From: Natrinema halophilum
Lineage (GTDB): Archaea > Halobacteriota > Halobacteria > Halobacteriales > Natrialbaceae
Length of the DNA: 64,000 bases
Assembly (NCBI RefSeq): GCF_013402815.2
Contig: NZ_CP058601.1
Location: forward strand, 1,364,001 to 1,428,000
Reading direction: 5' to 3'
Part shown: positions 2,967 through 53,508 of the stretch, in pieces
How the letters are laid out: each line of letters opens with the position of its first letter
How positions within the stretch are numbered: the stretch's first letter is position 1
Program-made: the position numbers and the translations under genes
Notes under the pieces: generated by a model
The model's database searches: none
What the model was told of the DNA's origin: nothing
What the model saw: the letters and a program-made list of their open reading frames with translations, nothing else

Positions 2967-3221
2967 CGAACTGGGACGATCAACTCCTGTGAGAGGGGCC
3001 GCTCCGTCCGTAGCCTCGGCAGACGAATCGACAGCCCGTTCGGAAAAGCGACCTCCGCGACCGCGCTACCGACGGAAAATGCCGACCGGCCAGAGCGGCG
3101 ACGATCAATCTCGGTACGTCTCGCCGTGACGATTGCCGCCACAATCCTGTAGCCACTGCTCGGGAGCGCACTCTCGAGTCCGTTCGTCCAATCTGACGGG
3201 GGTGGCCGGTTCGAACCGCGT

Positions 3222-3388
3222 ATCAGCCAATTGACTGTGTATCGGTCAACTGGCTGTGTATCGGTCAACTGGCTGTGTATCGGTCAACTGGCTGTGTATC
3301 GGTCAACTGGCTGTGTATCGGTCAACTGGCTGTGTATCGGTCAACTGGCTGTGTATCGGTCAACTGGCTGTGTATCGGTCAACTGGTT
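3222..3388. repeat. 19-bp tandem repeat, eight near-perfect copies
   Basis: The unit CGGTCAACTGGCTGTGTAT recurs at 3243, 3262, 3281, 3300, 3319, 3338, 3357 and 3376, with a degenerate copy before it at about 3224. There are no spacers. The array lies between crtB and the convergent carotenoid genes. Because 19 is not a multiple of 3, the apparent 196-residue reading frame through it is an artefact. Confidence 0.95.
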
Positions 3389-11405: not shown

Positions 11406-12854
11406 ATGGAATTTGACTCGTGTCAACGGTACCCCCTGTTCATAAATAACGAGTTCGTACAGCCGTCGAGCGGCGATTATTTCACGACCAGAGATCCGGC
11501 AACCGGCGATTCGATCGCAGAGGTTGCGGCTGCTACCGACAGCGACGTCGACCGCGCCGTCGAGAGCGCAAACGAGTCGCTTTCCGCGTGGCAATCAATG
11601 TCTCCCGACGAACGAGGGCGGATCATCCAGCGCATTGCAGACGGTCTCCGAGACGACGCTGCAAACCTCGCTCGACTCGAGAGCCGGGATCAAGGAAAAC
11701 CCCTGACTCAGGCCCAAAACGACGTAGAAGGAGCGGCTCGATACTTCGAGTACTACGCCGGCGCAGCAGACAAACTCGAGGGAAAAAGCGTCCCACGTGG
11801 ACGGGAAACATTCGATTTCACCGTCCGAGAACCATACGGTGTTAGTGGACAGATCATTCCCTGGAATTTCCCGCTCAATATCACTGCTCGGGGGGTTGCT
11901 CCGGCACTCGCGGCCGGAAACACGGTCGTAATCAAGCCCGCACCAACGACACCGCTTTCCGTATTGCACTTCGCAGAACTCTGTCGAGATGCCGGCGTTC
12001 CCGACGGCGTCGTAAACGTCGTTACTGGGGCATCGGAGCCGGGTGCTGCGCTTGCGACACACGAAGACGTCGACCAAATTACGTTCACGGGAAGCGGCCC
12101 CACAGGGCAGTCGGTCATGAAATCCGCGGCCGAGAGCGTGACGCCCGTCACCCTCGAGCTCGGCGGGAAAAATCCCGCAATCGTGATGCCCGATGCCGAC
12201 CTCGAGGAGGCGGTCGTTTCGATCGCGGAGGGTATCTTTACGAACGCCGGACAAATCTGTTCCGCTGCCGACCGCGCGCTCGTACACGAAAACGTTTACG
12301 ACGAGTTCATCGATCGAATCGTCCAGCAGGCAGAATCGTACACGCTCGGGCCGGGAATCGATGACCCGGATATGGGACCACTCAACCACGCTGCCCACCT
12401 CGAGACGGTCGTCGAGTACATCGATGAGGGTCTGCGCGAAGGTGCAACGATCGAAACTGGAGGAGAGCCACTCGACAGAGACGGACATTTCGTCTCACCG
12501 ACAGTTTTCTCGGACGTCGACAACGGGATGCAGATCGCACAGGAAGAGATATTCGGTCCGGTACTCTCGGTGATACCCGTCTCCGACCGTGAAGAGGCCG
12601 TTGCACTGGCGAACGATACCGAATACGGACTTACGGGTGGCGTTTTCTCGCACGACGTCAAACGGGCGCTCCGAATAGCTCGTGACATCGAGGCTGGAAG
12701 CGTATACGTAAACGAGTGGTTCGGTGGTTCGGTCGAGACGCCGTTCGGCGGTGTCAAAGGGAGTGGCATCGGTCGCGAGAAAGGACTCGAGGCGCTCGAG
12801 TCGTATCTTCAAACGAAGAACATCTCGGTGAACCTCGCAGCCAGAGACAGCTGA
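11406..12854 (+). CDS. NAD(P)-dependent aldehyde dehydrogenase
   Basis: The 482-residue protein is a full-length ALDH-superfamily enzyme. It shows GQIIPWNFPL (cofactor region), the Glu-containing VTLELGGKNPAIV near residue 250, and the catalytic Cys near residue 284 in NAGQICSAADRA. The C-terminus has TPFGGVKGSGIGREKG. It oxidises an aldehyde to the acid with NAD(P)+. Pairing with the preceding aminotransferase suggests a semialdehyde substrate (succinate or malonate semialdehyde). An AT-rich tract (TTATTTTAAAC) in the 49-nt gap is too close to the ATG to be its leaderless promoter, so cotranscription is likely. Confidence 0.9.
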   Translation: MEFDSCQRYPLFINNEFVQPSSGDYFTTRDPATGDSIAEVAAATDSDVDRAVESANESLSAWQSMSPDERGRIIQRIADGLRDDAANLARLESRDQGKPLTQAQNDVEGAARYFEYYAGAADKLEGKSVPRGRETFDFTVREPYGVSGQIIPWNFPLNITARGVAPALAAGNTVVIKPAPTTPLSVLHFAELCRDAGVPDGVVNVVTGASEPGAALATHEDVDQITFTGSGPTGQSVMKSAAESVTPVTLELGGKNPAIVMPDADLEEAVVSIAEGIFTNAGQICSAADRALVHENVYDEFIDRIVQQAESYTLGPGIDDPDMGPLNHAAHLETVVEYIDEGLREGATIETGGEPLDRDGHFVSPTVFSDVDNGMQIAQEEIFGPVLSVIPVSDREEAVALANDTEYGLTGGVFSHDVKRALRIARDIEAGSVYVNEWFGGSVETPFGGVKGSGIGREKGLEALESYLQTKNISVNLAARDS

Positions 12855-13606
12855 ATGTAGCCGCCTTTGATGCCGGCTCACGGTCCGTCCCACCAACTCT
12901 CGAACGCCGATGACGATTCGACGACAATCCGGACCGGAAACCCACACCTCAGTCGCAGCTAGTCAGCGAGGATCGAATCTGTCGAAAGCGGAGTCGCGAG
13001 GGCATCTCTCACGTGTTGGGTCCACAGAGGTGATCGCTGTCACCGATCCGATGAACCCGTCGCACCACCTGAGTTTCGTCCGAAACGGGCACTGTCGCCA
13101 CCGGAGGTCACTCCGATTAGTTTCGGCACCTCGGTGGTGTGCCTTTCCGTGATAGTGTCCGTGGCATCACACATCGATCGGAGGGGATCGTCCGGTTCGA
13201 ACACGTGTCTTCCGAGAACGGCGACGTCCTCCGTCGAGGGATTCGACGGTCGCGTTCCGCATCCGTCTCGGAAATCAAACCCGGGACGATCGGGAGCGGG
13301 ATAGCCTTCTGCCGTCCACCCCGGACGGCGAAACTGTCTCGCCGAAACGACCGATCAGTTTGCGGTTCAATCGTCCGATTCTGTCCGTCACCTCCGAACG
13401 GGCCGTCCGGCTGCCGGTTGCTTGGACGTGACTCTCGAACGGGGGCAGCGGAGTCGCGACGATCAACCCGTACACCGATCCACCGACGCCCTCAGTTACC
13501 AGTACCGAACGACGCGCGGTAGGAAACGCATTACACTGCCGCAGGAACCGGATACGCGAGGGTACGAATCGGATACTAAACAGCGAGGTGCTGGTAGCAG
13601 CGGGAA
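12855..13606. other. Intergenic region, no gene recognised
   Basis: About 750 bp between the ALDH and epimerase genes. Open frames here are Arg/Ser-rich, lack acidic haloarchaeal composition and have no start signals. Nothing else seen. Confidence 0.5.
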
Positions 13607-14596
13607 ATGGACTCGCCATTGCTCCGTGACAGAACGATACTCGTGACCGGCGGTGCAGGCTTCATCGGTAGCCACCTCGTCGGCGCCTTGACCCCGCACA
13701 ACGAAGTCAGGATCCTCGACAGCTTCGAAACCGGTGATCGAGCCCATCTTCCCGACGGCGTAACGGTAATCGAAGGCGACATCGGCGATCCAATCGCCCT
13801 CCAGAGAGCCGCTCGCGGCGTCGATCTGATCTTTCACCACGCCGCTCTCGTCAGCGTCTCCCAGAGCGTCGACGCGCCGCGACGGAGCAACCAGACGAAC
13901 CTCGAGGCGAGTCTCCTCGTTCTAGAGCAGGCCCGCCAGGAGGACGCCCGCGTCGTCGTCGCCTCGAGCGCGGCCGTCTACGGGCATCCCGAAGAGCTAC
14001 CCATCACGGAGTCGGCACCGACGAATCCGACGTCGCCATACGGCGTCCAGAAACTCGCACTCGACCAATACACCCGCCTCTACGAGGAACTCTACGATCT
14101 TCCCACCGTCGCCCTACGGTATTTCAATGTTTACGGCCCGCGCCAACAGGGTCCCTACAGCGGTGTCATCTCGACATTTCTCGAGCAAGCGCGAGCGGGC
14201 GAACCGATCACGATCGAAGGTGACGGCCGGCAGAGCCGCGATTTCATCCACGTCGCTGACGTCGTCCGGGCGAACCTTCAAGCGGCGACGACAGACGCGA
14301 CAGGCGAGGCGTACAACATCGGAACAGGACATCGAACGACGATCGAGGAACTCGCCGAGACGATCCGGGATGCGGCAGAATCGTCCTCACCGATCGTCCA
14401 CCGCGAACCCAGAGCCGGTGACATCAGACACAGCGGAGCAGACACTTCGAAGGCGAACCAGGGTCTCGGGTTCGATGCACGAATCGGGCTCGAGGCGGGC
14501 ATTCAATCGTTGATCGAGGACGACTCGACTGCACAGTCCACCGAAGACACAGGCGCACCGCTGCGTTCGAATCACGAAAGCGGATCCTACAGTTAG
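13607..14596 (+). CDS. NAD-dependent nucleotide-sugar epimerase/dehydratase
   Basis: This 329-residue extended SDR starts with the NAD-binding VTGGAGFIGSHL. It has the catalytic pair Ser (ASSAAVYG) and YXXXK (YGVQK), plus RYFNVYGPRQ and DGRQSRDFIHVADV, typical of UDP-glucose 4-epimerase-like enzymes. It probably interconverts UDP-hexoses or UDP-N-acetylhexosamines for surface polysaccharides. It stands alone, 6 kb before the main glycan locus, and lacks the ATAACAAAG motif found there. GalE, WbpP or other SDR specificities cannot be separated from sequence alone. Confidence 0.88.
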   Translation: MDSPLLRDRTILVTGGAGFIGSHLVGALTPHNEVRILDSFETGDRAHLPDGVTVIEGDIGDPIALQRAARGVDLIFHHAALVSVSQSVDAPRRSNQTNLEASLLVLEQARQEDARVVVASSAAVYGHPEELPITESAPTNPTSPYGVQKLALDQYTRLYEELYDLPTVALRYFNVYGPRQQGPYSGVISTFLEQARAGEPITIEGDGRQSRDFIHVADVVRANLQAATTDATGEAYNIGTGHRTTIEELAETIRDAAESSSPIVHREPRAGDIRHSGADTSKANQGLGFDARIGLEAGIQSLIEDDSTAQSTEDTGAPLRSNHESGSYS

Positions 14597-15039
14597 TTGT
14601 GGCTGGAATCACCCCGTTTCGGTCCGTCGTGACCGCTCGTATCCGATTCCTCGAGTATCCTCGAAGCGGATAGTTACTTCTGAATCCGGAGTGAATTCAC
14701 GCTAACCGTTTCAAACGTCCGGTTGAGTTTATTCGGCTAGTCGAGCAAAGACCGCCTATACCATGACTGGGACGTATTTCACGAACCAGGACTGGAAGTC
14801 GCCCCACCGCGACCCAGACACGCAGAGTGATCGAACACTGACTGATAGCCGCTTCCACGGTATTTGTGGCATGTAAACCGATGGAAGCGTTCGATTCACG
14901 GCCTGTTAGCAGGTATGAATGTACGTTCACGAGCAGATACAGTCGATATAATAACAGCATATGGTTTATAAAAAGCGATTTGTGGGCCGGTCACGACGGT
15001 ACTGGACATGAATCATAAAAACGCTCTCCATAGGCAGCC
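14597..15039. other. Intergenic region with promoter-like AT-rich tracts
   Basis: No gene is visible. The right half is AT rich; CATAAAAACG near 15013, about 25 nt before the next ATG, could be a core promoter, and GGTTTATAAAAAG near 14970 is a second candidate. Confidence 0.45.
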
Positions 15040-15564
15040 ATGAGTATCCGAGGAGAGGTCCCCATAGAAATGGGCACGTTCGGGTCGACGGCCGATGAAG
15101 CAGTGGTATCAGTCGTTGTGACGAGCTTGCGAGGGAGGATCGTTTCGGGACCCGATCACCCGCTTCAGATCGACGGAAACGCACATATCGCTGCGCTCAT
15201 CGGCATCATCGCACTCGCCCTGCTCGGCGGGATACTCGTTATTCGAAACCGATACGATCAACCGACCGCCCTCGCGACCGAAACTGAACAGAACCCCGAC
15301 GAGTTCGTGACCGATCGAGAACGCGTCCGGCAGCTCCTTCGAGAGAACGACGGTCGGATGAAACAATCAGCTATTGTGGAGTCGGTCGACTGGTCGAAGG
15401 CGAAGGTGAGTCGACTTCTCGCCGACCTCGAGGAAGACGACCAGGTCACGAAACTCCGTCTGGGACGGGAGAATCTTGTTTGTCTCCCGGGAGAGGAACC
15501 CACGGCGTCGAAGTCGCCGACACAGCCGATCGACGATCAACCGAAACAGCCGACCGACGATTAG
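15040..15564 (+). CDS. Membrane-anchored winged-helix regulator
   Basis: The 174-residue protein has an N-terminal extracellular-looking segment and one transmembrane helix near residues 50-68 (AALIGIIALALLGGILVI). The cytoplasmic winged-helix domain follows (residues ~95-150), with VRQLLRENDGRMKQSAIVE, the recognition helix SKAKVSRLLADLEE, and a wing around KLRLGRENLV. The acidic/Gln tail ends QPTDD. Membrane-tethered wHTH proteins of this kind are frequent in haloarchaea and are thought to couple envelope state to transcription. The next gene, 175 nt downstream on the same strand, encodes a secreted surface protein that may be its target or signal source. That link is inference. Confidence 0.8.
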   Translation: MSIRGEVPIEMGTFGSTADEAVVSVVVTSLRGRIVSGPDHPLQIDGNAHIAALIGIIALALLGGILVIRNRYDQPTALATETEQNPDEFVTDRERVRQLLRENDGRMKQSAIVESVDWSKAKVSRLLADLEEDDQVTKLRLGRENLVCLPGEEPTASKSPTQPIDDQPKQPTDD

Positions 15565-15739
15565 TCACACCGTCTCTCGAAAGCAATCGCCACCGTTCCT
15601 ATCAACAACCGTTGTTTTCTTCTGACGAACGCGCCATTGAATCCGTTACTCCCGGGCCGTAGTTTGCAATTTCGTATCGTAATGGTTCTGCTGGTTTATC
15701 CGCAGAAGTCACGACGAATCGGATGCCTTCACGGCAACC

Positions 15740-17539
15740 ATGAATGCACGCAATCAGCTACTCGTCGTAGTTACTGCGCTGATGCTTGTGTTCTCGAGCG
15801 GGGCGATGGTCACAGCAGCGTCGAATGCTGGGGCTATGAGCGAGAACACATCAGCCAACGGAGACGAGTACGAACAGACGAACAACGAAACGACGAACGT
15901 GACAGTAGGTAACGGCGCGGACGTCGAAGAGAACGACACCGTCACCGACGATGACGATGACACGCTCGATAACGAGACCGAAGCCAACGAAACGGACGAG
16001 GCCCAACAGGCCGCGTACGTGACGTTCAACGATCAGACGACCGATGGCGAGACGGTCGTCGTCGAGAACGTTTCGCTGGCAAGTCCCGGGTTCGTGACGA
16101 TCCACGACAGCAGTCTCCTCGTGGGTGACGCCATCGGAAGTGTCATTGGCACCTCCGAGTACCTCGAGGCAGGCACGCACGAGAACGTGACGGTAACGCT
16201 CGACGAGCCCCTCGAGGAGGACGAAACCCTGATCGCGATGCCACATCGCGATACGAACCAGAATCAAACGTACGACTTCGTCGAAACGGAAGGACAAGAG
16301 GACATCCCGTTCCTCACGGCCGACGGCGAGCCAGTGACCGACGATGCAGTGGTTACTGTCGAAACAGCCGCGGATGAGGAACCGACCGACGACGAAGAAC
16401 CGGTCGACGACGAAGATAACATCACTGACGAAGAGCCGCTCGATGACGAAGAGCCGCTCGACGACGAAGAGGACAACATCACTGACGAAGAGCCGCTCGA
16501 CGACGAAGAGCCGCTCGACGACGAAGAGGACAACATCACTGACGAAGAGCCGGTCGATGACGAAGAGCCGCTCGATGAGATGCCGATGGACGACCTTCCG
16601 GTCGATGGTGACCGCGGACCAATCTTCATCACGGTCGAGAATCCCACCATCGAGAACCTGAACGTCGAAAACGTAACCGTATACGTTCTCGTCGTCAGTG
16701 AGGACGTCGACGCCGACGAGATCGCGGATCAAATCGACAACGTCACTGACGAAGAGCCGGTTGACGAAGAGGACAACGTCACTGACGAAGAGCCGGTTGA
16801 CGAAGAGGACAACGTCACTGACGAAGAGCCGGTTGACGAAGAGGACAACATCACTGATGAAGAGCCGCTCGACGACGAAGAGGACAACATCACTGACGAA
16901 GAGCCGGTCGATGACGAAGAAGACAACATCACTGATGAAGAGCCGCTCGACGACGAAGAGGACAACATCACTGACGAAGAGCCGGTTGACGACGAAGAGG
17001 ACAACGTCACTGACGAAGAGCCGCTCGAGGAGAACGTCACTGAAGAACCTCCCGCAGCTGAGGAAAACATCACTGAAGAAGATAACGAAACCGAGGAAGA
17101 ACCAGCTGCCGATTCGTTTAACGTCACGGATCTCGAGGCACCCGACACCGCGACGATCGGTGATACTATCACCGTGAACGCGACGGTCGAGAATCCCGCT
17201 GACGAAGAACGAACCGAGGCTATCCAGTTCCGGCTGGACGGTGACCTCGTTACCGAGCAGAACCTGACGCTCGAGAGCGATGAGAGCGACGACGTCGAAT
17301 TCGAAGTCGACACCAGTGATCTCGCGCCCCGCGAGTACATCCACATGGTGTTAGCCGACGAGTCCGGCGAGGTCGCAACCATCGAGCTCACCGAAGAGAC
17401 CGACGTCGACGAGACGAACGAAACCGAGACCGAAGACGACGGTTTCGATACCGACACGAACGAAACCGAGACCGGTCTCGACGACACTGCAAACGAAACA
17501 GCTAACGAATCCGAGTCCCTCCTCGGGCCTCTGGCCTAA
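15740..17539 (+). CDS. Secreted DUF7282 protein with acidic, sequon-rich repeats
   Basis: This 599-residue exported protein starts with a Sec-type signal peptide (residues 1-27, hydrophobic LLVVVTALMLVFSSGAM). Residues ~85-205 form a DUF7282 domain (DQTTDGETVVVENVSL to VVTVETA). Residues ~210-440 are tandem Asp/Glu repeats such as DNITDEEPLDDEE and DNVTDEEPVDEE, interrupted near 285-325 by a short ordered segment. Residues ~465-560 look like a CARDB-type beta-sandwich (APDTATIGDTITVNATVENP). Each repeat contains an N-I-T or N-V-T sequon, so the stalk could be densely N-glycosylated. No C-terminal anchor is obvious. Likely a cell-surface or matrix protein of unknown ligand. Confidence 0.85.
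   Translation: MNARNQLLVVVTALMLVFSSGAMVTAASNAGAMSENTSANGDEYEQTNNETTNVTVGNGADVEENDTVTDDDDDTLDNETEANETDEAQQAAYVTFNDQTTDGETVVVENVSLASPGFVTIHDSSLLVGDAIGSVIGTSEYLEAGTHENVTVTLDEPLEEDETLIAMPHRDTNQNQTYDFVETEGQEDIPFLTADGEPVTDDAVVTVETAADEEPTDDEEPVDDEDNITDEEPLDDEEPLDDEEDNITDEEPLDDEEPLDDEEDNITDEEPVDDEEPLDEMPMDDLPVDGDRGPIFITVENPTIENLNVENVTVYVLVVSEDVDADEIADQIDNVTDEEPVDEEDNVTDEEPVDEEDNVTDEEPVDEEDNITDEEPLDDEEDNITDEEPVDDEEDNITDEEPLDDEEDNITDEEPVDDEEDNVTDEEPLEENVTEEPPAAEENITEEDNETEEEPAADSFNVTDLEAPDTATIGDTITVNATVENPADEERTEAIQFRLDGDLVTEQNLTLESDESDDVEFEVDTSDLAPREYIHMVLADESGEVATIELTEETDVDETNETETEDDGFDTDTNETETGLDDTANETANESESLLGPLA
16422..17040 (+). repeat. In-frame repeats encoding Asp/Glu-rich sequon units
   Basis: Units of 12-13 codons (core GACAACATCACTGACGAAGA) occur three times at 16422-16560 and about eight times at 16735-17030. 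Copies are nearly identical at the DNA level, implying recent expansion. The two blocks flank a non-repetitive 130-bp segment. Confidence 0.9.
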
Positions 17540-17937
17540 ACGAGGGTCGACCTACCGGACAGAGCGTCTTTTTACGCCGTCGTCGAGGGCTGTCAGAGAG
17601 TAACGACGGCGTGCATTCTCACGGAGGCGAACTCGGCAACGAACTGTGGAGTGGCGACACTGAACTCCATCAAGGTAACCAAGTGACCGACTGCCATCGA
17701 AACCGCCTTCGGCTGTCGAACTCGCTCCGAAGACGTGGCTATCGGGTGTTTGATTACTCGAACGGATATGAGCTGCTGTGCCAGGTATGGGGCCCCATCT
17801 CGAGAGTGTCCCACGGGTCGAACGACGTTTTTCGTGTGTCGAAGATGAACGGGGAGAAACAACCGAGGTAACAGCGATTCTCGAGTCGAAATACGACTTC
17901 CAACGCTCGGTGCTGCCACCTCCACGAGCGTGCTCGC
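17540..17937. other. Intergenic region, no gene recognised
   Basis: Nearly 400 bp between convergent genes. It holds a T-run terminator candidate (17569-17573) and nothing else supported. Confidence 0.5.
17569..17573 (+). terminator. T-tract terminator candidate for the DUF7282 gene
   Basis: TCTTTTTA lies 29 nt after the stop codon. Archaeal termination commonly uses such U-runs without a required hairpin. Confidence 0.4.
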
Positions 17938-18441
17938 TCAGCCGAGGAGGCGATAGAGGCTGCTCGCCGCAACAGCGAGGAACACGAGGACGCTCCAGAG
18001 CACCAAGTTGATATTCGAGACCAGGGGGACGCCGAGACCGACCAGAGCGATCACAACGAGTCCGAGCACACAGAGTCCGAGATGAAACTGAAGGATGCTA
18101 GAGTGGTTATCGTTGTGACCGTCGACGTACTGAAGGACGTCGTCGAAGTGCCGGCCAGGCTGGATCGTCTTCGCATCCGAATCGTACTCGATCACCGCAT
18201 CCTCTTGGAGTTGTGGAAGATGTGTCTGCTGGAGGGAAACGTAGACGCTCTTGTAGAGGTTGTTCGGGACGGGCGTCGTGTCCGATTCGGTCGCAGCGAT
18301 TTCGGTCGCGACGTCAGAGACATCGATCTGACCGCCATCGTCTGCAAGCTGCTGGACGATAGCTCGCCGGCGATCGTTACCGAGGATGTGAAACACCTCG
18401 CTCTCTTCGAGGGGTTCAGTTCTGTTCGTTTGAACTGACAT
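17938..18441 (-). CDS. DUF7344 winged-helix protein with two membrane helices
   Basis: Starting at MSVQTNRTEPLEESE the protein has 167 residues. The N-terminal half is the haloarchaeal DUF7344 winged helix: VFHILGNDRRRAIVQQLAD, then VSLQQTHLPQLQEDAVIEYD. Two transmembrane helices follow near residues 115-160. Two further paralogs lie in the window at 22617-23153 and 53984-54580. The family is regarded as DNA-binding regulators of surface or motility functions, but the target here is unknown. ATG 18441 is preferred to 18489 because family members begin shortly before the helix-turn-helix. Confidence 0.8.
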   Translation of the reverse strand: MSVQTNRTEPLEESEVFHILGNDRRRAIVQQLADDGGQIDVSDVATEIAATESDTTPVPNNLYKSVYVSLQQTHLPQLQEDAVIEYDSDAKTIQPGRHFDDVLQYVDGHNDNHSSILQFHLGLCVLGLVVIALVGLGVPLVSNINLVLWSVLVFLAVAASSLYRLLG

Positions 18442-18785
18442 CGATGAGAGAGAAGGGGCACTGATTCTCGACGGACAGTCCACCACCAATGACCATGTAT
18501 CGCCTCTTCACCCACTACTAACTTTAACTTTTGCAGGTTACGGCGAGGTCCGGTGCTGACGGTGAACTGAGAGCAGCTCAGGTCGTGTGTAGGAAGCCAC
18601 TACAGTGGTCAGTACAATGACCCCTCCGAAGGGATTCTGGAGAGACGAGAGTCGGGAGTCAGGGGGACGCTCGAACGGCCGGCCCAGGGACGAACTACGG
18701 TGTGGACGGTTCAGGACATCATCGCATTCGATTCGAGCGGAAAACGGGTCGTATCCGCAGTACGTTCAGCGATCGAAAACCGAAG
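18442..18785. other. Intergenic region with upstream AT-rich promoter tract
   Basis: ACTTTAACTTTTGC near 18520-18535 is a probable promoter for the minus-strand DUF7344 gene. No gene seen in the remainder. Confidence 0.4.
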
Positions 18786-18977
18786 TTAGTCGCCGGGCAG
18801 GTGACCTCCCGACTGCATTTCCCGGTACGTCGTACAGGACGGACACCCGTGGACGACGTCGCCATTGTCTCCGAAGACGCGAGCGAACTGTTGTGTTACG
18901 TGAGTTCCGCAGTTTCGACACCGAGCACCGGCTGTGGACGATTCCATGGGCTTCCAGTCTTGCTGTGGGGAGTTCAT
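18786..18977 (-). CDS. Small zinc-ribbon protein (DUF7563-like), 63 residues
   Basis: The compact protein contains CRNCG near residue 20 and CPSC near residue 45, separated by THVTQQFARVFGDNGDVVHG. This four-Cys zinc ribbon with the conserved VFGDN and VHGC segments matches a widespread haloarchaeal small-protein family (DUF7563). The ATG at 18977 gives 63 residues; an alternative ATG at 18947 would give 53 and begin closer to the first Cys. Stands alone between regulators. Molecular role unknown. Confidence 0.75.
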   Translation of the reverse strand: MNSPQQDWKPMESSTAGARCRNCGTHVTQQFARVFGDNGDVVHGCPSCTTYREMQSGGHLPGD

Positions 18978-19551
18978 GGTTGGTTGGGGGTGTACTCGGA
19001 GGAGTCTCGATCGATTCCGTTCGGGGGGCGGTCCCTCCCATCAGTGACGGACTCGGTGCGGACGCGTACCGTAACCGTACTGGAACGAGACTCGTCCGGG
19101 CATCATCGTATCGAGGGGAGCAAACGCGAATAAAGGACGTTGACTGTTCACCCGGAGAGCGAGACTGAGAAGCGAGAAATACGCACTTTCTGGCGACTAC
19201 GGGCCCAGAGCGGGGCAGTCGATATGGAAGAGGGTAAACGGGTGACCACGGCTGTCAAGCCGAGTTTAGCCGTGTTGGTCCGTATTCGGCGGTCAAACTG
19301 GCAATTGTCTATCCGACGAATGCCAGAAAGGTGTGATTTCCGGATCGAAATACGATCTTACGTCTCGGAACGAAGTTCTGGCGACGGGTAAGGTACATCG
19401 TTATAAAATACCACTACGGCTTACCGATCGGTGTGCCAGAATATATGGTGGACACCTCGACAGTGGTGGACCCGCTCTCGACTGTTTCGAATCGTCACCT
19501 CTCCCGGAGAGCGAACGGATCCCGCACATCATCGACGACAGACTACTAAAG
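18978..19551. other. Intergenic region, no gene recognised
   Basis: About 570 bp with only Arg/Ser-rich random frames on both strands. The last 30 bp hold the likely promoter of the next regulator. Confidence 0.45.
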
Positions 19552-19884
19552 ATGTCAACGCAAGTGAGCAACACGAGATCGGAACCGACCTCCAATCCGT
19601 CCGCCCAGCTCGACGTCCTCGGCGACGACTGCGCGCGGACGATTCTCACAGCGACGAGCGAGGGACCGAAGACTGCAAAGGAGCTGACGAACCGAACGGA
19701 TAGCTCGTCTGCAACGGTGTACCGACGAATCAACAATCTGCTCGAAAGCGATTTGCTGGCGGAGTGCGTCCGGTTCGACGACGACGGGTCGCACACGACT
19801 GCCTACGAAGCAACCGTCGATGTCCTCCGCGTTCAGATCGACGCTGATGGTATCGACGTCGTGATTTCGGATACCGACGGGTGA
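19552..19884 (+). CDS. ArsR-like winged-helix transcriptional regulator
   Basis: From MSTQVSNTRSEP the protein has 110 residues. LDVLGDDCARTILTATSEG is the first helix pair, AKELTNRTDSSSATVYRRIN the helix-turn-helix, and LLAECVRFDDDGSHTTAYEA the wing. It has no sensor domain or metal-binding Cys pattern, so the signal is unknown. The frame continues upstream to 19333 but that extension lacks family-like composition, so the internal ATG is preferred. It precedes the PadR gene and the glycan locus. Confidence 0.78.
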   Translation: MSTQVSNTRSEPTSNPSAQLDVLGDDCARTILTATSEGPKTAKELTNRTDSSSATVYRRINNLLESDLLAECVRFDDDGSHTTAYEATVDVLRVQIDADGIDVVISDTDG

Positions 19885-20073
19885 CGGCACCCGATCGAGC
19901 CGAAAAACAGTTACCGGAACCGACGGGACGAACGTCGATAGTTAGTATCCTTCGCATTCCGCCTCGAACAGTCGGATTGAGATATCTTCAGCGACTGCGG
20001 TATCTTCGCGAAAACAATCACTTTCGCTCGAGTAAAACGTCTCAAAATGATGACCCAGTGCTGTATGATACGG

Positions 20074-22225: not shown

Positions 22226-22303
22226 ATGACGGACGATCACCCCGACGGCATGCCACAGTTCCGGTCGACGGGGCCGTCACGAACCCGACTGCCGTCAACG
22301 AAA

Positions 22304-22402
22304 GTGGCGACGTCGGTGCGGAAGTGGCGACCTCGATGTGGCAGTGGCGACGTCGGTGCGGAAGTGGCGACCTCGATGTGGCAGTGGCGACGTCGGTGCA
22401 GT
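22304..22402. repeat. 20-bp tandem repeat with a 40-bp higher-order period
   Basis: GTGGCGACGTCGGTGCGGAA and GTGGCGACCTCGATGTGGCA alternate: A-type at 22304, 22344 and 22384 (partial), B-type at 22324 and 22364. Copies of the same type are identical, so the 40-bp pair has been duplicated recently. It lies in non-coding sequence downstream of a pseudogene. Confidence 0.9.
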
Positions 22403-29251: not shown

Positions 29252-29367
29252 AGAACGGGGGTGTGCGGTCATATTCAGGAAGCGACGATAAACGTTTCGT
29301 GACCGTGCGAATATTATTATCTTCCATTATGGTTTGTCAGTGATCGCGGACAATGAGGGTGCAGCGG

Positions 29368-29591
29368 GCGATGCGAAGTCAGGACAGTTCGGCGGGCGAT
29401 GCGAAGTCAGGACAGTTCGGCGGGCGATGCGAAGTCAGGACAGTTCGGCGGGCGATGCGAAGTCAGGACAGTTCGGCGGGCGATGCGAAGTCAGGACAGT
29501 TCGGCGGGCGATGCGAAGTCAGGACAGTTCGGCGGGCGATGCGAAGTCAGGACAGTTCGGCAGGCGATGCCAAATCAGGACAGTTCGGCGG
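29368..29591. repeat. 28-bp tandem repeat, eight copies
   Basis: Copies beginning GCGATGCGAAGTCAGGACAG start at 29368, 29396, 29424, 29452, 29480, 29508, 29536 and 29564. The last full copy (GCGATGCCAAATCAGG) is diverged. No spacers are present, so it is not CRISPR. It ends 8 bp before the stop codon of the DUF354-like gene on the minus strand. Confidence 0.95.
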
Positions 29592-29598
29592 GCGACGG

Positions 29599-43370: not shown

Positions 43371-43906
43371 ATGTCGCTGTTCGAACGGGCCGCAGTGGAA
43401 ACCGACGCGATTGAACTGCCACAACCAAGACCAAGTCGTGGAATTCGGAGCCGACTCGAGACGACCGGCAGCGAATGACACGTCGCTTGCCGAGATGACG
43501 AACGGGCGACCGTTCGTCGAGATTGTCAACCCGTCCGTGCTCGCCAACTCCCGAGATGTCCCTCATCCGGCAGTCCCTATCTCGACGTGATTTCGACGGG
43601 TAACAGAGTATTACTGGCCGGAAACGGCGATATGATCGAACGAAACAGTCGGTCGCTACGGTCGATCACCTATCCGCTAGTTCGTGGAAAAACGACTCAT
43701 AACTGGTTCGACCCTGGGATATGCTCATATTTCCCCACAAAATCTGATGTTGCGATCGGAACATCATGCTATCGTAAAATTCGTATTATACAATCTAAAT
43801 ACGGATAGATTGTGTATATTTATGTACTGATGGGAAGAATGTCTGTAAATTGTAGCTACGGTGGCAAGAAAAAGTTTATGTTCGTAAGGCGGAGTTGCAT
43901 AGGTGT
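43371..43906. other. Intergenic region, AT rich toward the right
   Basis: No gene is visible. The last 250 bp are much richer in A+T than the surrounding DNA and include the promoter of the first beta-helix gene. Confidence 0.5.
43870..43879 (+). promoter_or_regulatory. AAAAGTTTAT core promoter of the first beta-helix gene
   Basis: 27 nt before the ATG at 43907, fitting leaderless transcription. The same AAAGTTTAT core occurs before the two paralogs. Confidence 0.7.
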
Positions 43907-44860
43907 ATGGCGCAGAACCCCCGTACGTCCGAGACGGATTCCACTCCGACTACAGGCCGTAATACCAAATTTACACGCCGTAACTACGTTCGCTCGCTCG
44001 CCGCGATGGCGACGGCGACGACCGCACTCGGCGGAGCCGGTTCGGTAGCGGCCCAGGACGACTACGAGGTTATCGAAGCCCAGGGACAGACGATCACCCT
44101 CGACGCTGGTGAAACCTGGGAGAACAAGCTCATCGATATGACGACCGGTCAGGACATCGTTATCACCGCCCACAGTAGCGACTGGACGGTTCGCAATATC
44201 GGCTTCAAGGGCGAGAACACGTCCGGGACCGGCTCTGCCACGTTCGGAATCTCCGATACGGCAGGTGGCACGTGCACCGTCGAGAACGTCTATCTCGGTG
44301 ACGGTTCGAGCACGGGTAACAACAATCCGAACGGCCACGGCCAGACCGCGTTCTGGGTTGCCCCCGATCACTCCGGGCACATCGACTTCTCGAACGTAAA
44401 CATCCAAAAATTTGCTGACAACGCAATCTACGGCTCCGCACCCGGGACCAACGGGGGCGGCACGATCCACATCGATAGCAGTTTCGCCGCGAACTGTTAC
44501 GTCTCTCACTTCCGACTGGCCACGGAAGGCAGCAAAGTCACGAACTCGAGCGTGTACGTCGACGGAAGCGAAGGGTACGCCGGCCGCGGCATCTGGGGCT
44601 GGGCCCCAGGAGCGATCGAGGTCAAAGACTGTCAGATCGAGATGAACGGCCACAACACCGCCATCGACGCCGGTGCCAACGGGAAGCCGACCCAAGTCGT
44701 CGTCGAGAACTCCGACTACGACGATCAAGCGGGCATCGCCGAACACGCCGGTTCGAACGTCAAACTCGGAGACGATGTCGGAACGAACCCCGATGCCGTC
44801 ATCCCCGAAGGCGTCCCGACGTCACCCGAAGAAGCCGCCTCGGGAACTGAAACGAAGTGA
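43907..44860 (+). CDS. Tat-exported parallel beta-helix protein, short form
   Basis: The 317-residue protein has a twin-arginine signal (FTRRNYVRSLAAMATATTAL, cleavage after residue ~50). A mature domain follows with repeated short beta strands: WTVRNIGFKGENTSGTG, CTVENVYLGDGS and IDFSNVNIQKFADNAIYG. This is a right-handed parallel beta-helix, as in pectate lyases and surface glycan-binding proteins. The sequence EVIEAQGQTITLDAGETWEN is nearly the same in the paralogs at 45429 and 48737. It ends at VIPEGVPTSPEEAASGTETK, where the paralogs continue into extra modules. Ligand or substrate unknown. Confidence 0.85.
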   Translation: MAQNPRTSETDSTPTTGRNTKFTRRNYVRSLAAMATATTALGGAGSVAAQDDYEVIEAQGQTITLDAGETWENKLIDMTTGQDIVITAHSSDWTVRNIGFKGENTSGTGSATFGISDTAGGTCTVENVYLGDGSSTGNNNPNGHGQTAFWVAPDHSGHIDFSNVNIQKFADNAIYGSAPGTNGGGTIHIDSSFAANCYVSHFRLATEGSKVTNSSVYVDGSEGYAGRGIWGWAPGAIEVKDCQIEMNGHNTAIDAGANGKPTQVVVENSDYDDQAGIAEHAGSNVKLGDDVGTNPDAVIPEGVPTSPEEAASGTETK

Positions 44861-44873
44861 GAACCCCGACACG

Positions 44874-44878
44874 TTTTT
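44874..44878 (+). terminator. T-tract terminator candidate
   Basis: CGTTTTTC lies 13 nt after the stop codon of the short beta-helix gene. Confidence 0.4.
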
Positions 44879-44897
44879 CTGGTTGAAATCGATTCCG

Positions 44898-44996
44898 CTG
44901 ACGTTTCTCTCCACAACCGACGTCCCCGCTGACGTTTCTCTCCACAACCGACGTCCCCGCTGACGTTTCTCTCCACTAACCGACGTCCCCGCTGAC
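44898..44996. repeat. 31-bp tandem repeat, three copies
   Basis: CTGACGTTTCTCTCCACAAC begins copies at 44898, 44929 and 44960; the third has a 1-bp insertion and a fourth begins at 44992. It lies between two beta-helix genes, downstream of the first. The remainder of the gap to 45428 holds no gene and becomes AT rich. Confidence 0.9.
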
Positions 44997-45391
44997 CAAC
45001 GGCATCCTCAACCCGGTTTTCACCGACGGTTCGTTCGTCCCCTCTGAGCGACTCCCCGTTCTCCCCGTCTTTTCTCTCGTTCGAGCGGCGGCTCGTCGAC
45101 TCGAGTATCGACTATCCACTCCGGGGGACACGACGTTTCCTGAACCGCTTCGGAATTCCGAAACCGTTCTTGCCGTCTCGGCGTGGAGTAATAACCTATT
45201 ACCGGCCGTCGGCGACCCGCAGATTATGTAGCCAGGACAGCCCTCGACCGTGATTTGTAGGCTAATACCTGATTACCAGCGACCGAAATTGAACTGTCGA
45301 CATATAATACTTCATGACCTATAATCACTCATTCTTCTATAATTAGTACAGATAGTATCTACAGTCTGTAAATTTTAAGTGTAGAGATGGG

Positions 45392-45401
45392 GAAAGTTTA
45401 T
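45392..45401 (+). promoter_or_regulatory. GAAAGTTTAT core promoter of the second beta-helix gene
   Basis: 27 nt before the ATG at 45429. It also decides the start: an upstream in-frame ATG at 45387 lies before the promoter core. Confidence 0.72.
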
Positions 45402-45428
45402 ACCGTTAGTACCGGATTACCCGATTGC

Positions 45429-47240
45429 ATGGCACGCGACTCTTCGGTACGGAATGACGAGTTGAACGCTTCCGGGAACGAGGAAGCTGGAGATAACGGC
45501 GGTAATAACGGGTTACTGCACCGGCGATCGTACATGAAGCTAGCTGGTGCGACGACGGCTGCCGCGACGCTCGCGGGAACTGCAAGCGCCGGGACCGATT
45601 ACGACGTCATCGAGGCACGCGGACAGACTGTCCGCATCGGAAGCGGTGAGACATTCGAAAACAAACTTATCGACCTGACGACCGGCGAGAGCTTTCTGCT
45701 CTACGTCGAGGGTTCGAACTCCGTCATTCGGAATGTCGGGTTCAAAGGCCTCTACCGGGGAGATTCGTTCATGATCGCGATCAATGCAGGCCCGGGCGAC
45801 GTACTCGTCGAAAACGTCTACCTCGGTGACGGAGCAACGAAAGAAGGCTCGAGCTTCGTACACGGCCCCGGTGGAGTTTTCATGCACAAGGGCAGCGAGG
45901 CGGATCTTACCTTCCGCAACTGCAACGTCCAGGGGTACCCGAACAACGGATTTTACTGCTCCAACACGCCATACGGCGGCAGCGTTCGTTTCGAGAGCTG
46001 TTTCGGCAAGAACAACGGCGTGACCACGTTCCGATGTGGCAGTGAGGACGACGAAATCGTCAACTGCGTCGCGTACAACGACAACACAGACTACGGCCGC
46101 GGCTACGGCGGCTACGGCGAGACGAACGGCCGCCCCGTCTGGGTCTGGAACGGCGGCACCGTGACGATCCGCGATTCGCACTTCGCTGACGGACCCTATC
46201 CGTATTCGATGGTCGCCGGCGCGAACGGTTCCCCCGGTAGCGTCGAATTCCAGAGCGGCGGTATCAGCGGGCAGATCCGACGCGCGAACGGGTCGACGGT
46301 CTCCGTTGCTAGCGACGTCTCGAGCGAACCCGACCTTTCGATCCCCGAGGGCGTCCCGACGTCTCCCGAAGCCGCTGCGGCGGGTAGCGAAACGACGGAC
46401 TTGAGCGGCGGGTCCGACAGCGACCAGTCAGACGACGAGAATCCCCAGCTTCCGAACGTCCTCCTCGTCGACGGCAGTCCGTCCGATGCGACCCGGTACG
46501 AATTCAGCGTCGACGGCGAAATCGAACACTCGAATTACGAGGGAGCATCGATCGACGACGAGGACACAATCGACGGCACCGACGTTTCCGGTAGCGTCGC
46601 CGACTGGAAGGATGCCTTCCGATTCGACGGCGAGCTAACCGATCTCACCGTGGATGGGCCCGGATCGGTACTGGTCAACGGCGAAGCGGTCGATCCCGCC
46701 GACTACGGCCAGCAGCTTCCCCACGTCCTCGAGATCGCGGGTCGTGGCACGCCGACGAGCTACGAGATCACGGTCGACGGGACGATCGAACTCGTCTCGA
46801 ACGACCAGCCGAAATCGGAGGCGACAGTCATCTCGGGGACGACCGTGCAGAGTTCGCTTACGGACGGCAGTCAGACCTTCCGGTTCTCGGGGGCACTGAC
46901 GGACGTGACGTTCACCGACGGCGCGGCTGACGTTACCCTCGACGGCGAGTCGATCGATCCGAGCGAATACGGCGACAACCAACTGCTGCCCCACGCCATC
47001 GTCATCGACGGCGTCCAGGCCGACGGGCCGAGTACGTACTCGTTCGAAGTCGACGGAACGGTTGTCCAATCGGCCTTCCAGAACGCCTCTATCGACGACG
47101 AAGACGTGATCGAAGGTCAGGCGGTTCGCGGTGCCGTCGGTAACTGGCTCGACGCCTACTGGTTCGACGGCGACATCGCCGACTTCCACCTGCGCGGCGA
47201 CGCCGCGGTCGACGTCCAGTACAACGCACGCGACCAGTAA
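45429..47240 (+). CDS. Tat-exported beta-helix protein with three C-terminal modules
   Basis: The 603-residue protein starts at MARDSSVRNDELNASGN. It has a twin-arginine signal (LHRRSYMKLAGATTAAATLA), then a parallel beta-helix domain of about 270 residues like that of the 43907 gene, ending in SIPEGVPTSPEAAAAG. After a linker come three related modules of about 85-90 residues, starting LPNVLLVDGS, LPHVLEIAGR and LPHAIVIDGV. Each has YEFSVDG-like, FRFDGELTD-like and VNGEXVDP-like parts. The C-terminus DAAVDVQYN is shared with the 48737 paralog. Likely a surface or matrix protein; the modules may bind glycans or partners. Confidence 0.88.
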   Translation: MARDSSVRNDELNASGNEEAGDNGGNNGLLHRRSYMKLAGATTAAATLAGTASAGTDYDVIEARGQTVRIGSGETFENKLIDLTTGESFLLYVEGSNSVIRNVGFKGLYRGDSFMIAINAGPGDVLVENVYLGDGATKEGSSFVHGPGGVFMHKGSEADLTFRNCNVQGYPNNGFYCSNTPYGGSVRFESCFGKNNGVTTFRCGSEDDEIVNCVAYNDNTDYGRGYGGYGETNGRPVWVWNGGTVTIRDSHFADGPYPYSMVAGANGSPGSVEFQSGGISGQIRRANGSTVSVASDVSSEPDLSIPEGVPTSPEAAAAGSETTDLSGGSDSDQSDDENPQLPNVLLVDGSPSDATRYEFSVDGEIEHSNYEGASIDDEDTIDGTDVSGSVADWKDAFRFDGELTDLTVDGPGSVLVNGEAVDPADYGQQLPHVLEIAGRGTPTSYEITVDGTIELVSNDQPKSEATVISGTTVQSSLTDGSQTFRFSGALTDVTFTDGAADVTLDGESIDPSEYGDNQLLPHAIVIDGVQADGPSTYSFEVDGTVVQSAFQNASIDDEDVIEGQAVRGAVGNWLDAYWFDGDIADFHLRGDAAVDVQYNARDQ

Positions 47241-47399
47241 CGGGATTCGATTTTCTCTCCTCAACCTCGGCAGTCCTGCCAGCGGCGGCTCTTCACGCGT
47301 TCGATCTACGGGTAGGGTTTCTCAGCGACGAGTTCCAGCGAGAGACGATATCGTTTCATACCATTACGGTAGGGACATTGTACTATCGGTACGAGAGTA

Positions 47400-47408
47400 A
47401 TAACAAAC
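47400..47408 (+). promoter_or_regulatory. ATAACAAAC, variant glycan promoter motif
   Basis: One-base variant with 24 nt to the ATG at 47433, in the TATA position. Confidence 0.68.
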
Positions 47409-47432
47409 TAATTGATACGCTTGTGTTGGTGT

Positions 47433-48593
47433 ATGGACATTGGGTTCTATCACGACGCTGCGGGCACTCGCCACGCTGGAGGCATTGCAGTGTACACCCA
47501 GCGAATGGCGGCCGAACTCAGCAAGAGACACGACGTCACGCTGTACACCGGCAGTGGCGAGATCGCTCCCGTACTGTCCGACTCCGACGTTACAATCGTC
47601 GAGACCCCATCGTTCCGCGATCATCCGACGCGCTGGCTCGACCCGTTGAATCCGCTGGGTGCGCAAAACCGGGAGAAGTTCCTGATGACGCTGTGGGCAG
47701 CGCGAAACGACGTGATCGACCACATGAACGATCACCTCGACGTCCTCTGTACGTACCAGTTCCTCGACGATCTCCTCCTCTCGAACCTCGTCGATATTCC
47801 AACGCTCCATACGTTTCACAGGGCGTCGTCCGTCAGTCCCGCAGCCTGGGTCCGAGATCGACTTTCGCAGACGGACCTTCTCGTCGCCAACTCCGACGAC
47901 ACCGCCCGTCAACTCACCGAGGCGTTCGACTACGACTTCGAGGGGATCGTTTACCCGGGCGTCGATCTCGATCAGTTCCGACCCGGCGTCGAACCCGCTT
48001 TCGAGACGGACCGGCCTGCAATCCTGTTCGTTGGGCGGCTCGTGGAATCCAAGGGAATCGACGACCTGCTCGAGGGAGTGGCAGCCCTCGACGTGGATCA
48101 GGAAGTCCACTTCGTCGGCAGGGGAGACCACGATCGAATCCGTCAACGAGCGACACGTCTCGGAATCCACGATGACGTCGTCTGTCACGGGGAAGTCCCT
48201 CATCCGGACCTGCCGGCGTACTATGCAGCTGCGGACGTATTCTGTCTCCCGAGCCACACTGAGAGTTTCGGGCTGGTAAACGTCGAAGCCATGGCCTGCG
48301 GGCTCCCGGTCGTCACGACCGATCTCGAGGGCATCAAAACCTACCTTTCCAACGGCGAGAACGGCCTGCTAACACAGGTCGGCGACCCCCAGGACCTCAC
48401 GGATAAGCTGACTATGCTCCTCGAATCGCCCGCGCTACGGTCGCGTCTCGGCGAGCAGGCACGAGCGGACGTACAGGATTTTTCCTGGACCGCGCAGGCA
48501 CGGCATCTGGAACGAATCTGTCGTAACGGACTCGAAACAGTCACAGAGATCGATCGGCCGTCGACGGTCCCGGCCCGAGCGGACACAATATAA
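47433..48593 (+). CDS. Family 4 glycosyltransferase
   Basis: From MDIGFYHDAAGTRHAGGIAV the protein has 386 residues. The GT-B fold is shown by the acceptor-domain glycine loop (HAGGIAVYTQRMAAEL), the linker YPGVDLDQFRPGV, ILFVGRLVESKGIDDLLEGV, and the donor signature SHTESFGLVNVEAMACGLPV (E-X7-E). Likely a cytoplasmic sugar transferase in surface glycan synthesis. ATG 47433 is preferred over 47412 because the motif then sits in the TATA position. It lies between two beta-helix genes, so it could glycosylate or build what they bind. Confidence 0.9.
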   Translation: MDIGFYHDAAGTRHAGGIAVYTQRMAAELSKRHDVTLYTGSGEIAPVLSDSDVTIVETPSFRDHPTRWLDPLNPLGAQNREKFLMTLWAARNDVIDHMNDHLDVLCTYQFLDDLLLSNLVDIPTLHTFHRASSVSPAAWVRDRLSQTDLLVANSDDTARQLTEAFDYDFEGIVYPGVDLDQFRPGVEPAFETDRPAILFVGRLVESKGIDDLLEGVAALDVDQEVHFVGRGDHDRIRQRATRLGIHDDVVCHGEVPHPDLPAYYAAADVFCLPSHTESFGLVNVEAMACGLPVVTTDLEGIKTYLSNGENGLLTQVGDPQDLTDKLTMLLESPALRSRLGEQARADVQDFSWTAQARHLERICRNGLETVTEIDRPSTVPARADTI

Positions 48594-48736
48594 CGGTCGG
48601 AGCTAGATACCACGACCTCGATTACCCCCTCTGAACCGGCAGCCGAGTGCGGCGGTATCTCGTCTCGATGCTCCCGCCGGCGGCCAGACGGATCGGTGTC
48701 GCCAGAGAGGACGGACGAAAACCCGCGTAAAACGGT

Positions 48737-50773
48737 CTAGTCGCTCCGAACGTTGTACTGGACGTCGACCGCGGCGTCGCCGCGCAGGTGGAAGTCGGCG
48801 ATGTCGCCGTCGAACCAGTACGCGTCAATTTCGTCGTCGATGCGTCCGGTGATAGAGTTCCCGTCGATTTCGTCGCTGGGATCGATCGATGCGTCTCGGT
48901 AACTCGAGGTGATCACCTCACCGTCGACGGTGAACGAATACGACGTCTCGCCGTCAGTGTCCGTGCCGTCGACTACGATTGCGTGGGGCAACAACACCTG
49001 TTCACCGTACTGATCGGGGTCGATACGTTGATCGTCGAGGTAGACGTGGGCGGAGCCGTCGAGGAAGGTCACGTCGGTGAGCGCCCCGGAGAATCGGAAT
49101 CGCTGCGCACCCCGTTCGATCGAACCTTCGACGGTGTTGCCCGACATAACCGTCGCGTACTCTTCTGAGTCGTCACCAGCGACCGTGTCGATCGTTCCGT
49201 CGACCGTGATTTCGTAGTTCGCAGACGAGCCGTTGCCGACGAGCGTCAGCACGTGGGGCTGTTCGTCACCGTAGTCGGCCGGATCGACCTGCTCGCCGTT
49301 GACGTAGATTCGGGCGTCACCATCGATCGTGAGCTCCTCGAGTTCGCCGTCGAACCGGAAGCCGTCTCGCCAGCCGGCAACGGAACCCGTCACGTGCCCG
49401 CTCTCGATCGAATCCTCGTCGTCGATCGTCGCACCCTTGACCGTCGCTTTCTCGGCCGTTCCGGAGACCGTAAATTCGTAGCGTGACCCACCGGACGTAC
49501 CGACGCCGTCGACCAGCAGCGTGTTCGCGAGGCTCGACTGATCGCCGTTGTACTCGGCGGGGTCGATCACCTCTCCGTTGACCTCGACGCGGGCCGAGCC
49601 CTGGCGGAACGCGACCTCGTGGAGATCGCCGGCGAATCGGAACTGGTCGACGTGTGAAGACGTCGTCACCCAGCCCGTTGCGCTCGTCCCGTCGATCGCG
49701 TCGTACGTCTCGAGCGGGCCGGCGTTCGGATCGTCGACGAGTTCGTCAGTGGTCTCGACGTAGTATTCCGTCGGCTCACCGGTGCCGGTAACCGTGAGGG
49801 TGTTCGACGGCAACTCGTCGCTCTGGCCGTCCTCATCGTCCGCCGGTGGACTGGACGATCCATCGTCGCTGCCGCCGCGTGCGGCTTCCTCGCCGCTTTC
49901 CGGACACCCTTCGGGGACGAAGTGTCGGGGGTTCGATCCGTCACCGCGACCGTCATCGGTGTGAACGTTGTCGATCGTCAGGTTGGGATTGCCGTACGTG
50001 ACGACCGATCCGCCGGTGCCGTTCGTTATGAAGTGGGAATTCCGAATCGTTGCGCCGCCACCGTAGTCGCCCTCCCAGACCCAGGCGTTGCGGTTCGCGG
50101 CTCGCGTTCCGCTCTTGTAACTCATGCAATTTTCGATCGACATCCCGCAGTCCCCGATCCGGAAGGCGGTGTGATGACAGTCGTTGCCGTAACAGCTATC
50201 CAGTGCGATGGAGCCGCCGTTTCCGTTGTATGCGGGCGCGGAACCGTAGATGCCATTGTTTCCAGGGACGTTGAAAGTAACGCGTTTCACGTCGAGATGG
50301 CCGGAGTGATCCGGGTCAACCCAGATACAGATCGAGCGCTCGCTCGCGGGTTGTTCGCCGGTCGACTCTCCGAAGTATATGTTCTCCATGACCGACGTGC
50401 CGGAACCCGAGTCGCAGACGCCGAAAATAGTCTCGTTGTACGGAATGGTTCCCGTAAACCCGACGTTCCGGATCGTCCAATTCGTTCCCTTGGCGACGAT
50501 CAAAATGTCGTTTCGGTCGCCGAAGTCGATGAGTTTGTTCTCCCAGGTTTCACCCGAGTCGATGCGGATCGTCTGTCCGCGCGCCTCGATGACGTCGTAC
50601 TCGCCGCCGGCCGCACTCGCCGCGGACGCTCCAACGCCCGCGGTGATTGCGGTTGCGCCGGCTAATTTCAGGTACGAACGGCGGTCAATTACACCGTGAA
50701 CGTCACGTTCGTCGTCGCTAACTGTCGTTTCGGCGGGACTGTCTCTGTCCCGTACCGGTTCGTCGCGTGCCAT
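48737..50773 (-). CDS. Tat-exported beta-helix protein with four C-terminal modules
   Basis: The 678-residue protein begins MARDEPVRDRDS. It has a twin-arginine signal (IDRRSYLKLAGATAITAGVG), a parallel beta-helix domain ending near FVPEGCPESGEEAARGG, then a polar linker and four modules. These begin SNTLTVTGTG, ANTLLVDGVG, PHVLTLVGNG and LPHAIVVDGT; the last three correspond in order to the three modules of the 45429 protein, so an extra first module was gained or lost. Shared ends (DAAVDVQYN) show recent common ancestry. The shared promoter core suggests coexpression with its paralogs. Confidence 0.88.
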   Translation of the reverse strand: MARDEPVRDRDSPAETTVSDDERDVHGVIDRRSYLKLAGATAITAGVGASAASAAGGEYDVIEARGQTIRIDSGETWENKLIDFGDRNDILIVAKGTNWTIRNVGFTGTIPYNETIFGVCDSGSGTSVMENIYFGESTGEQPASERSICIWVDPDHSGHLDVKRVTFNVPGNNGIYGSAPAYNGNGGSIALDSCYGNDCHHTAFRIGDCGMSIENCMSYKSGTRAANRNAWVWEGDYGGGATIRNSHFITNGTGGSVVTYGNPNLTIDNVHTDDGRGDGSNPRHFVPEGCPESGEEAARGGSDDGSSSPPADDEDGQSDELPSNTLTVTGTGEPTEYYVETTDELVDDPNAGPLETYDAIDGTSATGWVTTSSHVDQFRFAGDLHEVAFRQGSARVEVNGEVIDPAEYNGDQSSLANTLLVDGVGTSGGSRYEFTVSGTAEKATVKGATIDDEDSIESGHVTGSVAGWRDGFRFDGELEELTIDGDARIYVNGEQVDPADYGDEQPHVLTLVGNGSSANYEITVDGTIDTVAGDDSEEYATVMSGNTVEGSIERGAQRFRFSGALTDVTFLDGSAHVYLDDQRIDPDQYGEQVLLPHAIVVDGTDTDGETSYSFTVDGEVITSSYRDASIDPSDEIDGNSITGRIDDEIDAYWFDGDIADFHLRGDAAVDVQYNVRSD

Positions 50774-53436: not shown

Positions 53437-53508
53437 TGGGAACATTGGTGCGTGGGAACATTGGTGCGTGGGAACATTGGTGCGTGGGAACATTGGTGCG
53501 TGGGAACA
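53437..53508. repeat. 16-bp tandem repeat, about five copies
   Basis: TGGGAACATTGGTGCG begins at 53437, 53453, 53469, 53485 and 53501 (partial). It directly abuts the IS-end-like segment starting near 53517. Confidence 0.92.

Follow-up and report, generated by a model that had tools for sequence, protein, structure and literature searches.

Tandem arrays of conserved N-glycosylation sequons in an acidic, predicted exported DUF7282 protein of Natrinema halophilum

AglB-dependent glycans are common on exported haloarchaeal proteins, according to the glycoproteomics of Haloferax, and in Haloferax volcanii one such protein, HVO_2160, has 19 confirmed sites (PMC8241124). A looser association with the cell is described for halomucin of Haloquadratum walsbyi, a secreted protein proposed to hold water (PMC4378361). 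In the window, by which we mean the whole 64,000-nucleotide stretch of Natrinema halophilum DNA that was analysed, we characterized a gene whose product is likewise a predicted exported haloarchaeal protein with many sequons. HVO_2160 is larger than any other protein of its genome and is predicted to be anchored at its C terminus as an ArtA substrate (PMC8241124); compared with it by description, the present protein lacks such an anchor and differs in having its sites in tandem acidic repeats. As a haloarchaeal protein that is secreted yet stays loosely associated, halomucin is a precedent (PMC4378361), and this likeness is also one of description: halomucin has 9159 aa and was named for its similarity to mammalian mucins, whereas the present protein has 599 aa. 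The DUF7282 (PF23951) proteins of Halobacteria share the same full-length profile match and the N-terminal position after the signal peptide; others are encoded in the same genome, and a literature search found no paper naming DUF7282. The gene, the segments of its product and the flanking genes are as follows (window positions).

15040..15564, + strand: upstream neighbour with one membrane segment and a winged HTH (DUF7343; PF24034, E 1.8e-28)
15740-17539, + strand: gene for the 599-aa predicted exported acidic repeat protein, stop codon included
15740..15817, + strand: signal peptide MNARNQLLVVVTALMLVFSSGAMVTA, predicted from sequence, with a strongly conserved N terminus (AF2 helix 2-19)
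15818..16012, + strand: N-terminal acidic disordered segment with 6 sequons (pLDDT <50)
16013..16357, + strand: DUF7282 domain, predicted beta sandwich with 3 sequons (PF23951, E 1.2e-43; AF2 mean pLDDT 87)
16415..16579, + strand: array 1, three units, the first two of 57 bp each, DNITDEEP(L/V)DDEEPLDDEE (TRF period 57)
16580..16735, + strand: conserved middle beta segment PIFITVENPTIENLNVENVTVYVLVV, lying between the arrays in orthologues (strands 295-299 and 314-318, low confidence)
16736..17041, + strand: array 2, eight units of 12-13 codons, DN(I/V)TDEEP(V/L)D(D)EE (TRF period 39/78)
17042..17098, + strand: degenerate end of array 2, ENITEEDNETEEE (TRF period 33)
17111..17398, + strand: CARDB-like beta-sandwich domain (AF2 pLDDT ~94; Foldseek E 9.9e-6)
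17399..17536, + strand: acidic tail at the C terminus, bearing 4 sequons and ending in ESLLGPLA (from sequence)
17938..18489, - strand: downstream neighbour, a winged HTH (DUF7344) with C-terminal membrane segments (PF24035, E 9.4e-25)

The protein contains 118 Glu and 101 Asp (37% Asp+Glu) with only 6 Lys+Arg, and 401 of its 599 residues have pLDDT <50 in the AF2 model, indicating extensive disorder. The DUF7282 assignment made by a sequence-only reading of this DNA was borne out: residues 92-206 matched positions 1-112 of the 112-position profile with 148.2 bits against a cut-off of 27, all 26 aligned orthologues matched it as well, and the domain modelled alone folded into a confident beta sandwich. 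A sequence search for solved relatives of DUF7282 returned none at E <= 1. Its best structural match, the carbohydrate-binding module 8wae_B (Z 7.8, rmsd 3.5, 98 aligned), was too weak to assign a function from the fold, and this candidate was rejected. The C-terminal domain shares its fold with CARDB proteins (PF1109, PDB 3idu/2kl6), with a VIA Z of 13.5 to 3idu_B (rmsd 3.3, 98 aligned) and of 13.0 to 2kl6, although the Pfam CARDB profile was absent among the families reported at E <= 0.1 for the 26 orthologues, which gave weak matches to related Ig-like families. In the region 12000-20000 of the window, Rfam gave no match. A bacterial-type promoter scan also gave none; its model is bacterial and thus uninformative for Archaea.

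Export of the protein is predicted from the N-terminal signal peptide, which is conserved in orthologues and in which sequence inspection found no lipobox. The sequence-only reading had proposed a mucin-like stalk. Because searches of the protein revealed neither a lipobox nor a PGF-CTERM or membrane helix at its C terminus, an anchored stalk is unsupported: NCBIfam gave no PGF-CTERM match at E <= 1, the C terminus is ANESESLLGPLA, the chain stops shortly past the acidic tail, and the PGF motif, hydrophobic helix and basic end of ArtA/PGF-CTERM-anchored proteins are missing. The other forward frames downstream of the gene likewise encode no PGF-CTERM-type anchor, and a single stalk anchored at its C terminus was rejected. 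The term mucin-like is acceptable only as an analogy: the sequons here are N-linked and lie in Asp/Glu-rich repeats, not in the Pro/Thr/Ser-rich O-glycosylated repeats that define mucins. We also observed that 33 of 64 orthologue C termini finish with a short hydrophobic (A/V)(I/L)G-like motif straight after the acidic tail.

The whole protein has 31 N-X-S/T sequons (X not Pro), and the mature protein has 31 against 5.6 +/- 2.1 in the shuffled sequence. They are abundant outside the arrays too, in the N-terminal acidic segment, both folded domains and the C-terminal tail. Where one continuous array of 12-13-codon repeats with about 14 sequons had been read at 16422-17040, we found 12 sequons (1.05 expected; maximum 6 in 10,000 shuffles), or 15 over residues 227-449, and the first sequon begins slightly upstream, at 16418. 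Tandem Repeats Finder (TRF) resolved two arrays, with period 57 at 16387-16575 and period 39/78 at 16736-17028, split by the conserved non-repetitive segment at about 16580-16735. The repeat length of 12-13 codons accordingly applies to array 2 (sequon-unit starts at 16736, 16772, 16808, 16844, 16883, 16922, 16961 and 17000), whereas the units of array 1 (starts at 16415, 16472 and 16529) are spaced by 19 codons. Array 2 has one sequon per unit, N-I-T or N-V-T as had been noted, and ENVT follows its last unit; the repeats are 51% Asp/Glu with one Thr per unit.

The unit pattern GAYAAYRTNACNGAYGARGAR (DN[IV]TDEE) occurs 11 times in the 4.84-Mb genome, always within this gene, and the reversed-pattern control gave 0. 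The 27-bp cores of the 11 copies are on average 92% identical (minimum 85%), so the near-identity of the DNA copies was correctly perceived, and the sequon Thr codon is ACT in 11/11 units versus 6/58 of the other Thr codons of the gene. Because the cores are nearly identical and ACT is used in every one, the 11 units are copies of one seed, and the array grew by copying. On the opposite strand, a 497-codon frame is open at 15851-17344, with similar antisense frames at orthologous loci; it is a by-product of the codon make-up of the repeats.

Other tandem arrays are present in the window. At 29364-29595, immediately ahead of where a convergent gene ends, a 28-bp unit is repeated 8.3 times head to tail with 98% identity; it is not a CRISPR because it has no spacers. 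Shorter ones lie at 3220-3386 (19 bp), 22302-22399 (20/40 bp), 44895-44996 (31 bp) and 53429-53508 (16 bp). At 43895-50773, three related exported proteins with a common YDVIEARGQT-type start are encoded within a sugar-biosynthesis cluster.

We then compared the gene across genome collections holding one genome per species. First-pass matches were all Natrinema, with a match in 29/29 genomes of the genus group (its own included), and orthologues occupy the same locus in 28 further Natrinema-group genomes, one of which (G010; L051/L146) is truncated past DUF7282, with both arrays lost. The DUF7343 neighbour adjoins the gene in 28/28 of the other genus genomes and the DUF7344 neighbour is kept in 27/28, which suggests a regulatory link between the gene and these flanking membrane-associated winged-HTH genes. 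Intact genus copies have 553-803 aa and vary in the sequence, length and number of their repeats. Nevertheless, every intact member has sequon-bearing repeats, and 498 of 585 array Asn (85%) lie in sequons, versus 56 (~10%) expected, in the 28 genus orthologues including the gene itself. Non-array segments of the same orthologues gave 97/121 Asn for the N-terminal segment and 85/90 for the tail. After collapsing to unique contexts, X-S/T follows Asn in 314/377 cases and Asp in 89/1325. One DUF7282 paralogue in the N. halophilum genome (L142, G000:C1:1862535 on), an open frame of 1525 codons with a C-terminal EPEQPDTPA-type repeat, has 26 of 42 Asn in sequons.

The sequon background was taken from the proteins of the window and the fetched loci. 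Other window proteins have 12% (three exported) and 10% (cytosolic) of their Asn in sequons. Over 6083 aa, the cytosolic acidic FtsY linkers of the same 29 genomes have 41 Asn, a frequency of 0.67 per 100 aa versus 7 in the arrays; sequons account for 17 of these Asn, 8 of them at one conserved site. These linkers, together with the sequon-poor orthologues described below, rule out acidic low-complexity composition alone as the cause of the sequons.

Since copying alone would also spread sequons, we matched the repeat copies of each genome to one another by their flanks, excluding both sequon positions. The sequon Thr showed 51 silent and 5 replacing changes between copies, compared with silent:replacing ratios of 94:80 for Asp, 103:75 for Glu, 36:19 for Pro and 6:11 for non-sequon Thr. 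Replacements were relatively fewer at sequon Thr than at Asp/Glu in 13 genomes versus 1 (p 0.0018, the genomes being phylogenetically non-independent); the genus genomes are related, and the counts are likewise not independent. The silent excess therefore supports selection acting on the sequon Thr. The sequon Asn gives no such evidence: its codon had 10 silent and 17 replacing changes, all 17 of them Asn/Asp swaps, and it is no more conserved than Asp or Glu, its exchange with Asp being roughly as frequent as change at other acidic positions.

By profile search, the N. halophilum genome encodes a full AglB (G000:C1:1742742-1745384, - strand; TIGR04154, 864 bits) with STT3, AglB_core-like and AglB_L1 domains. 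Predicted export, 31 sequons and an oligosaccharyltransferase in the genome, three of the features of an archaeal AglB N-glycoprotein, are found here. Among the family genomes, AglB scored above the cut-off in 117/125. The genus genome G017 yielded no canonical AglB by profile or protein search (completeness 100%), and yet 18/23 of its array Asn lie in sequons; this weakens the link between AglB and the sequons without breaking it. The absence may reflect a recent loss, an assembly gap or the use of a second AglB_L1-containing protein. All that was found in G017 was a divergent STT3-like protein containing an AglB_L1 domain.

Matches to the N-terminal half occur in 109/125 family genomes, not all of them orthologues, and 40 loci outside the genus were fetched for comparison of linkers and sequons. 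Acidic linkers were general among them, but sequons were not: groups g4, g8, g10, g15 and g26 are sequon-rich (70-95% of Asn), g14, g19 and g23 are mixed, and sequons are nearly random in g13 (0/27 Asn), g16 (5/48), g18 (1/13) and g20 (2/13). Conservation of the sequons in the repeats of relatives, which the sequence-only reading had named as a test, is thus seen within the genus and fails in several other genera. In the domain tree all 28 rows of the genus fall in one clade and are sequon-rich; for the family, a minimum of 11 switches between rich and poor states is required on a poorly resolved gene tree with many unresolved forks. Presence or absence of AglB was ruled out as the explanation of the sequon state, AglB being nearly universal and G017 showing the opposite pattern. 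Because several genera keep arrays without sequons, the acidic array and not the sequon is the family-wide feature, and because sequons are absent or random in these arrays despite AglB, the protein can work without them. A short beta motif, V/I-x-I-E-Q-A-T-I-F-V-V, is present in multiple copies, interspersed with acidic linkers, in orthologues from other genera such as L133, L135 and L118, possibly as a self-association element; the window protein has one segment of this type.

One could regard the sequons as passengers, a single Asp-to-Asn change in the seed having been amplified, so that only the acidic, proline-containing array matters and the sites are largely unglycosylated. The ACT codon and near-identical DNA shared by all 11 units, the sequon-less acidic arrays that persist in other genera and the swapping of Asn and Asp between copies agree with this account. 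It is nevertheless unlikely, since the non-array segments are equally enriched, silent changes at the sequon Thr far exceed replacements in other genomes, and genus members differ in their sequon (NIT, NVT, NET, NAS, NDT); array Asn that do look like passengers, being randomly placed, are those of the sequon-poor genera. The selection on Thr might alternatively serve the backbone and not glycans: N-X-T would form a structural motif, namely an Asx turn or cap, or its side chains would be cation ligands within an acidic linker that binds cations. Acidic repeats together with a CARDB domain fit cation binding, metal ions are present in the solved structure of the PDB relative 3idu, and the sequon state does not track AglB. 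However, position +2 tolerates Ser and a broad range of middle residues occurs (E, I, V, L, A, D), as for a sequon, and the tails and domains are equally enriched, leaving this account quite improbable. That the array is a non-functional minisatellite, open by chance, has in its favour the other tandem arrays of the window and the open opposite strand, but it is barely credible given the genus and family orthologues with conserved flanking domains and synteny, and the selection on Thr.

AglB probably glycosylates the protein densely, because the differing repeats of relatives keep their sequons, the Thr is under selection and AglB is encoded; the proposal of AglB-dependent N-glycosylation is to this extent upheld, by inference from export, gene content and the genus-wide sequons. 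We consider it reasonably probable that the protein is a secreted, disordered polyanionic linker with DUF7282 and CARDB-like domains, and that in this lineage its arrays have turned into dense acceptors of N-glycans. A soluble polypeptide would be exported by Sec, in which long Asp/Glu/Pro arrays, themselves disordered, connect the DUF7282 beta domain, the middle beta segment and the CARDB-like adhesion domain; as the repeat unit in this lineage bears an N-X-T sequon, AglB would add N-glycans to many of the sites during export. The product would be a stiff, hydrated, protease-resistant extracellular spacer between two beta domains, charged and perhaps made more so by its glycans, lying in the matrix or else at, or close to, the S-layer and either soluble or loosely surface-bound, and the number of glycan sites would be set by repeat copying. 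More tentatively, N-glycan density may be an evolving modular trait, in which sequon units arise, spread by copying, and are retained through selection on the sequon Thr in some genera and absent in others. On the same tentative footing, the extracellular spacers of one family may alternate between two states, acidic only and acidic with glycans.

Taken together, the feature is real and well conserved, and the protein is a candidate multi-site secreted glycoprotein of haloarchaea. If its arrays are glycosylated, they would make up a compact tandem acceptor for N-glycans that occurs naturally in Archaea and could show how repeat number governs glycan density at molar salt, with the sequon-free orthologues as natural controls. 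The family would then separate acidity, which is kept throughout, from N-glycosylation, kept in some genera, two roles that are as a rule hard to tell apart in the surface proteins of haloarchaea.
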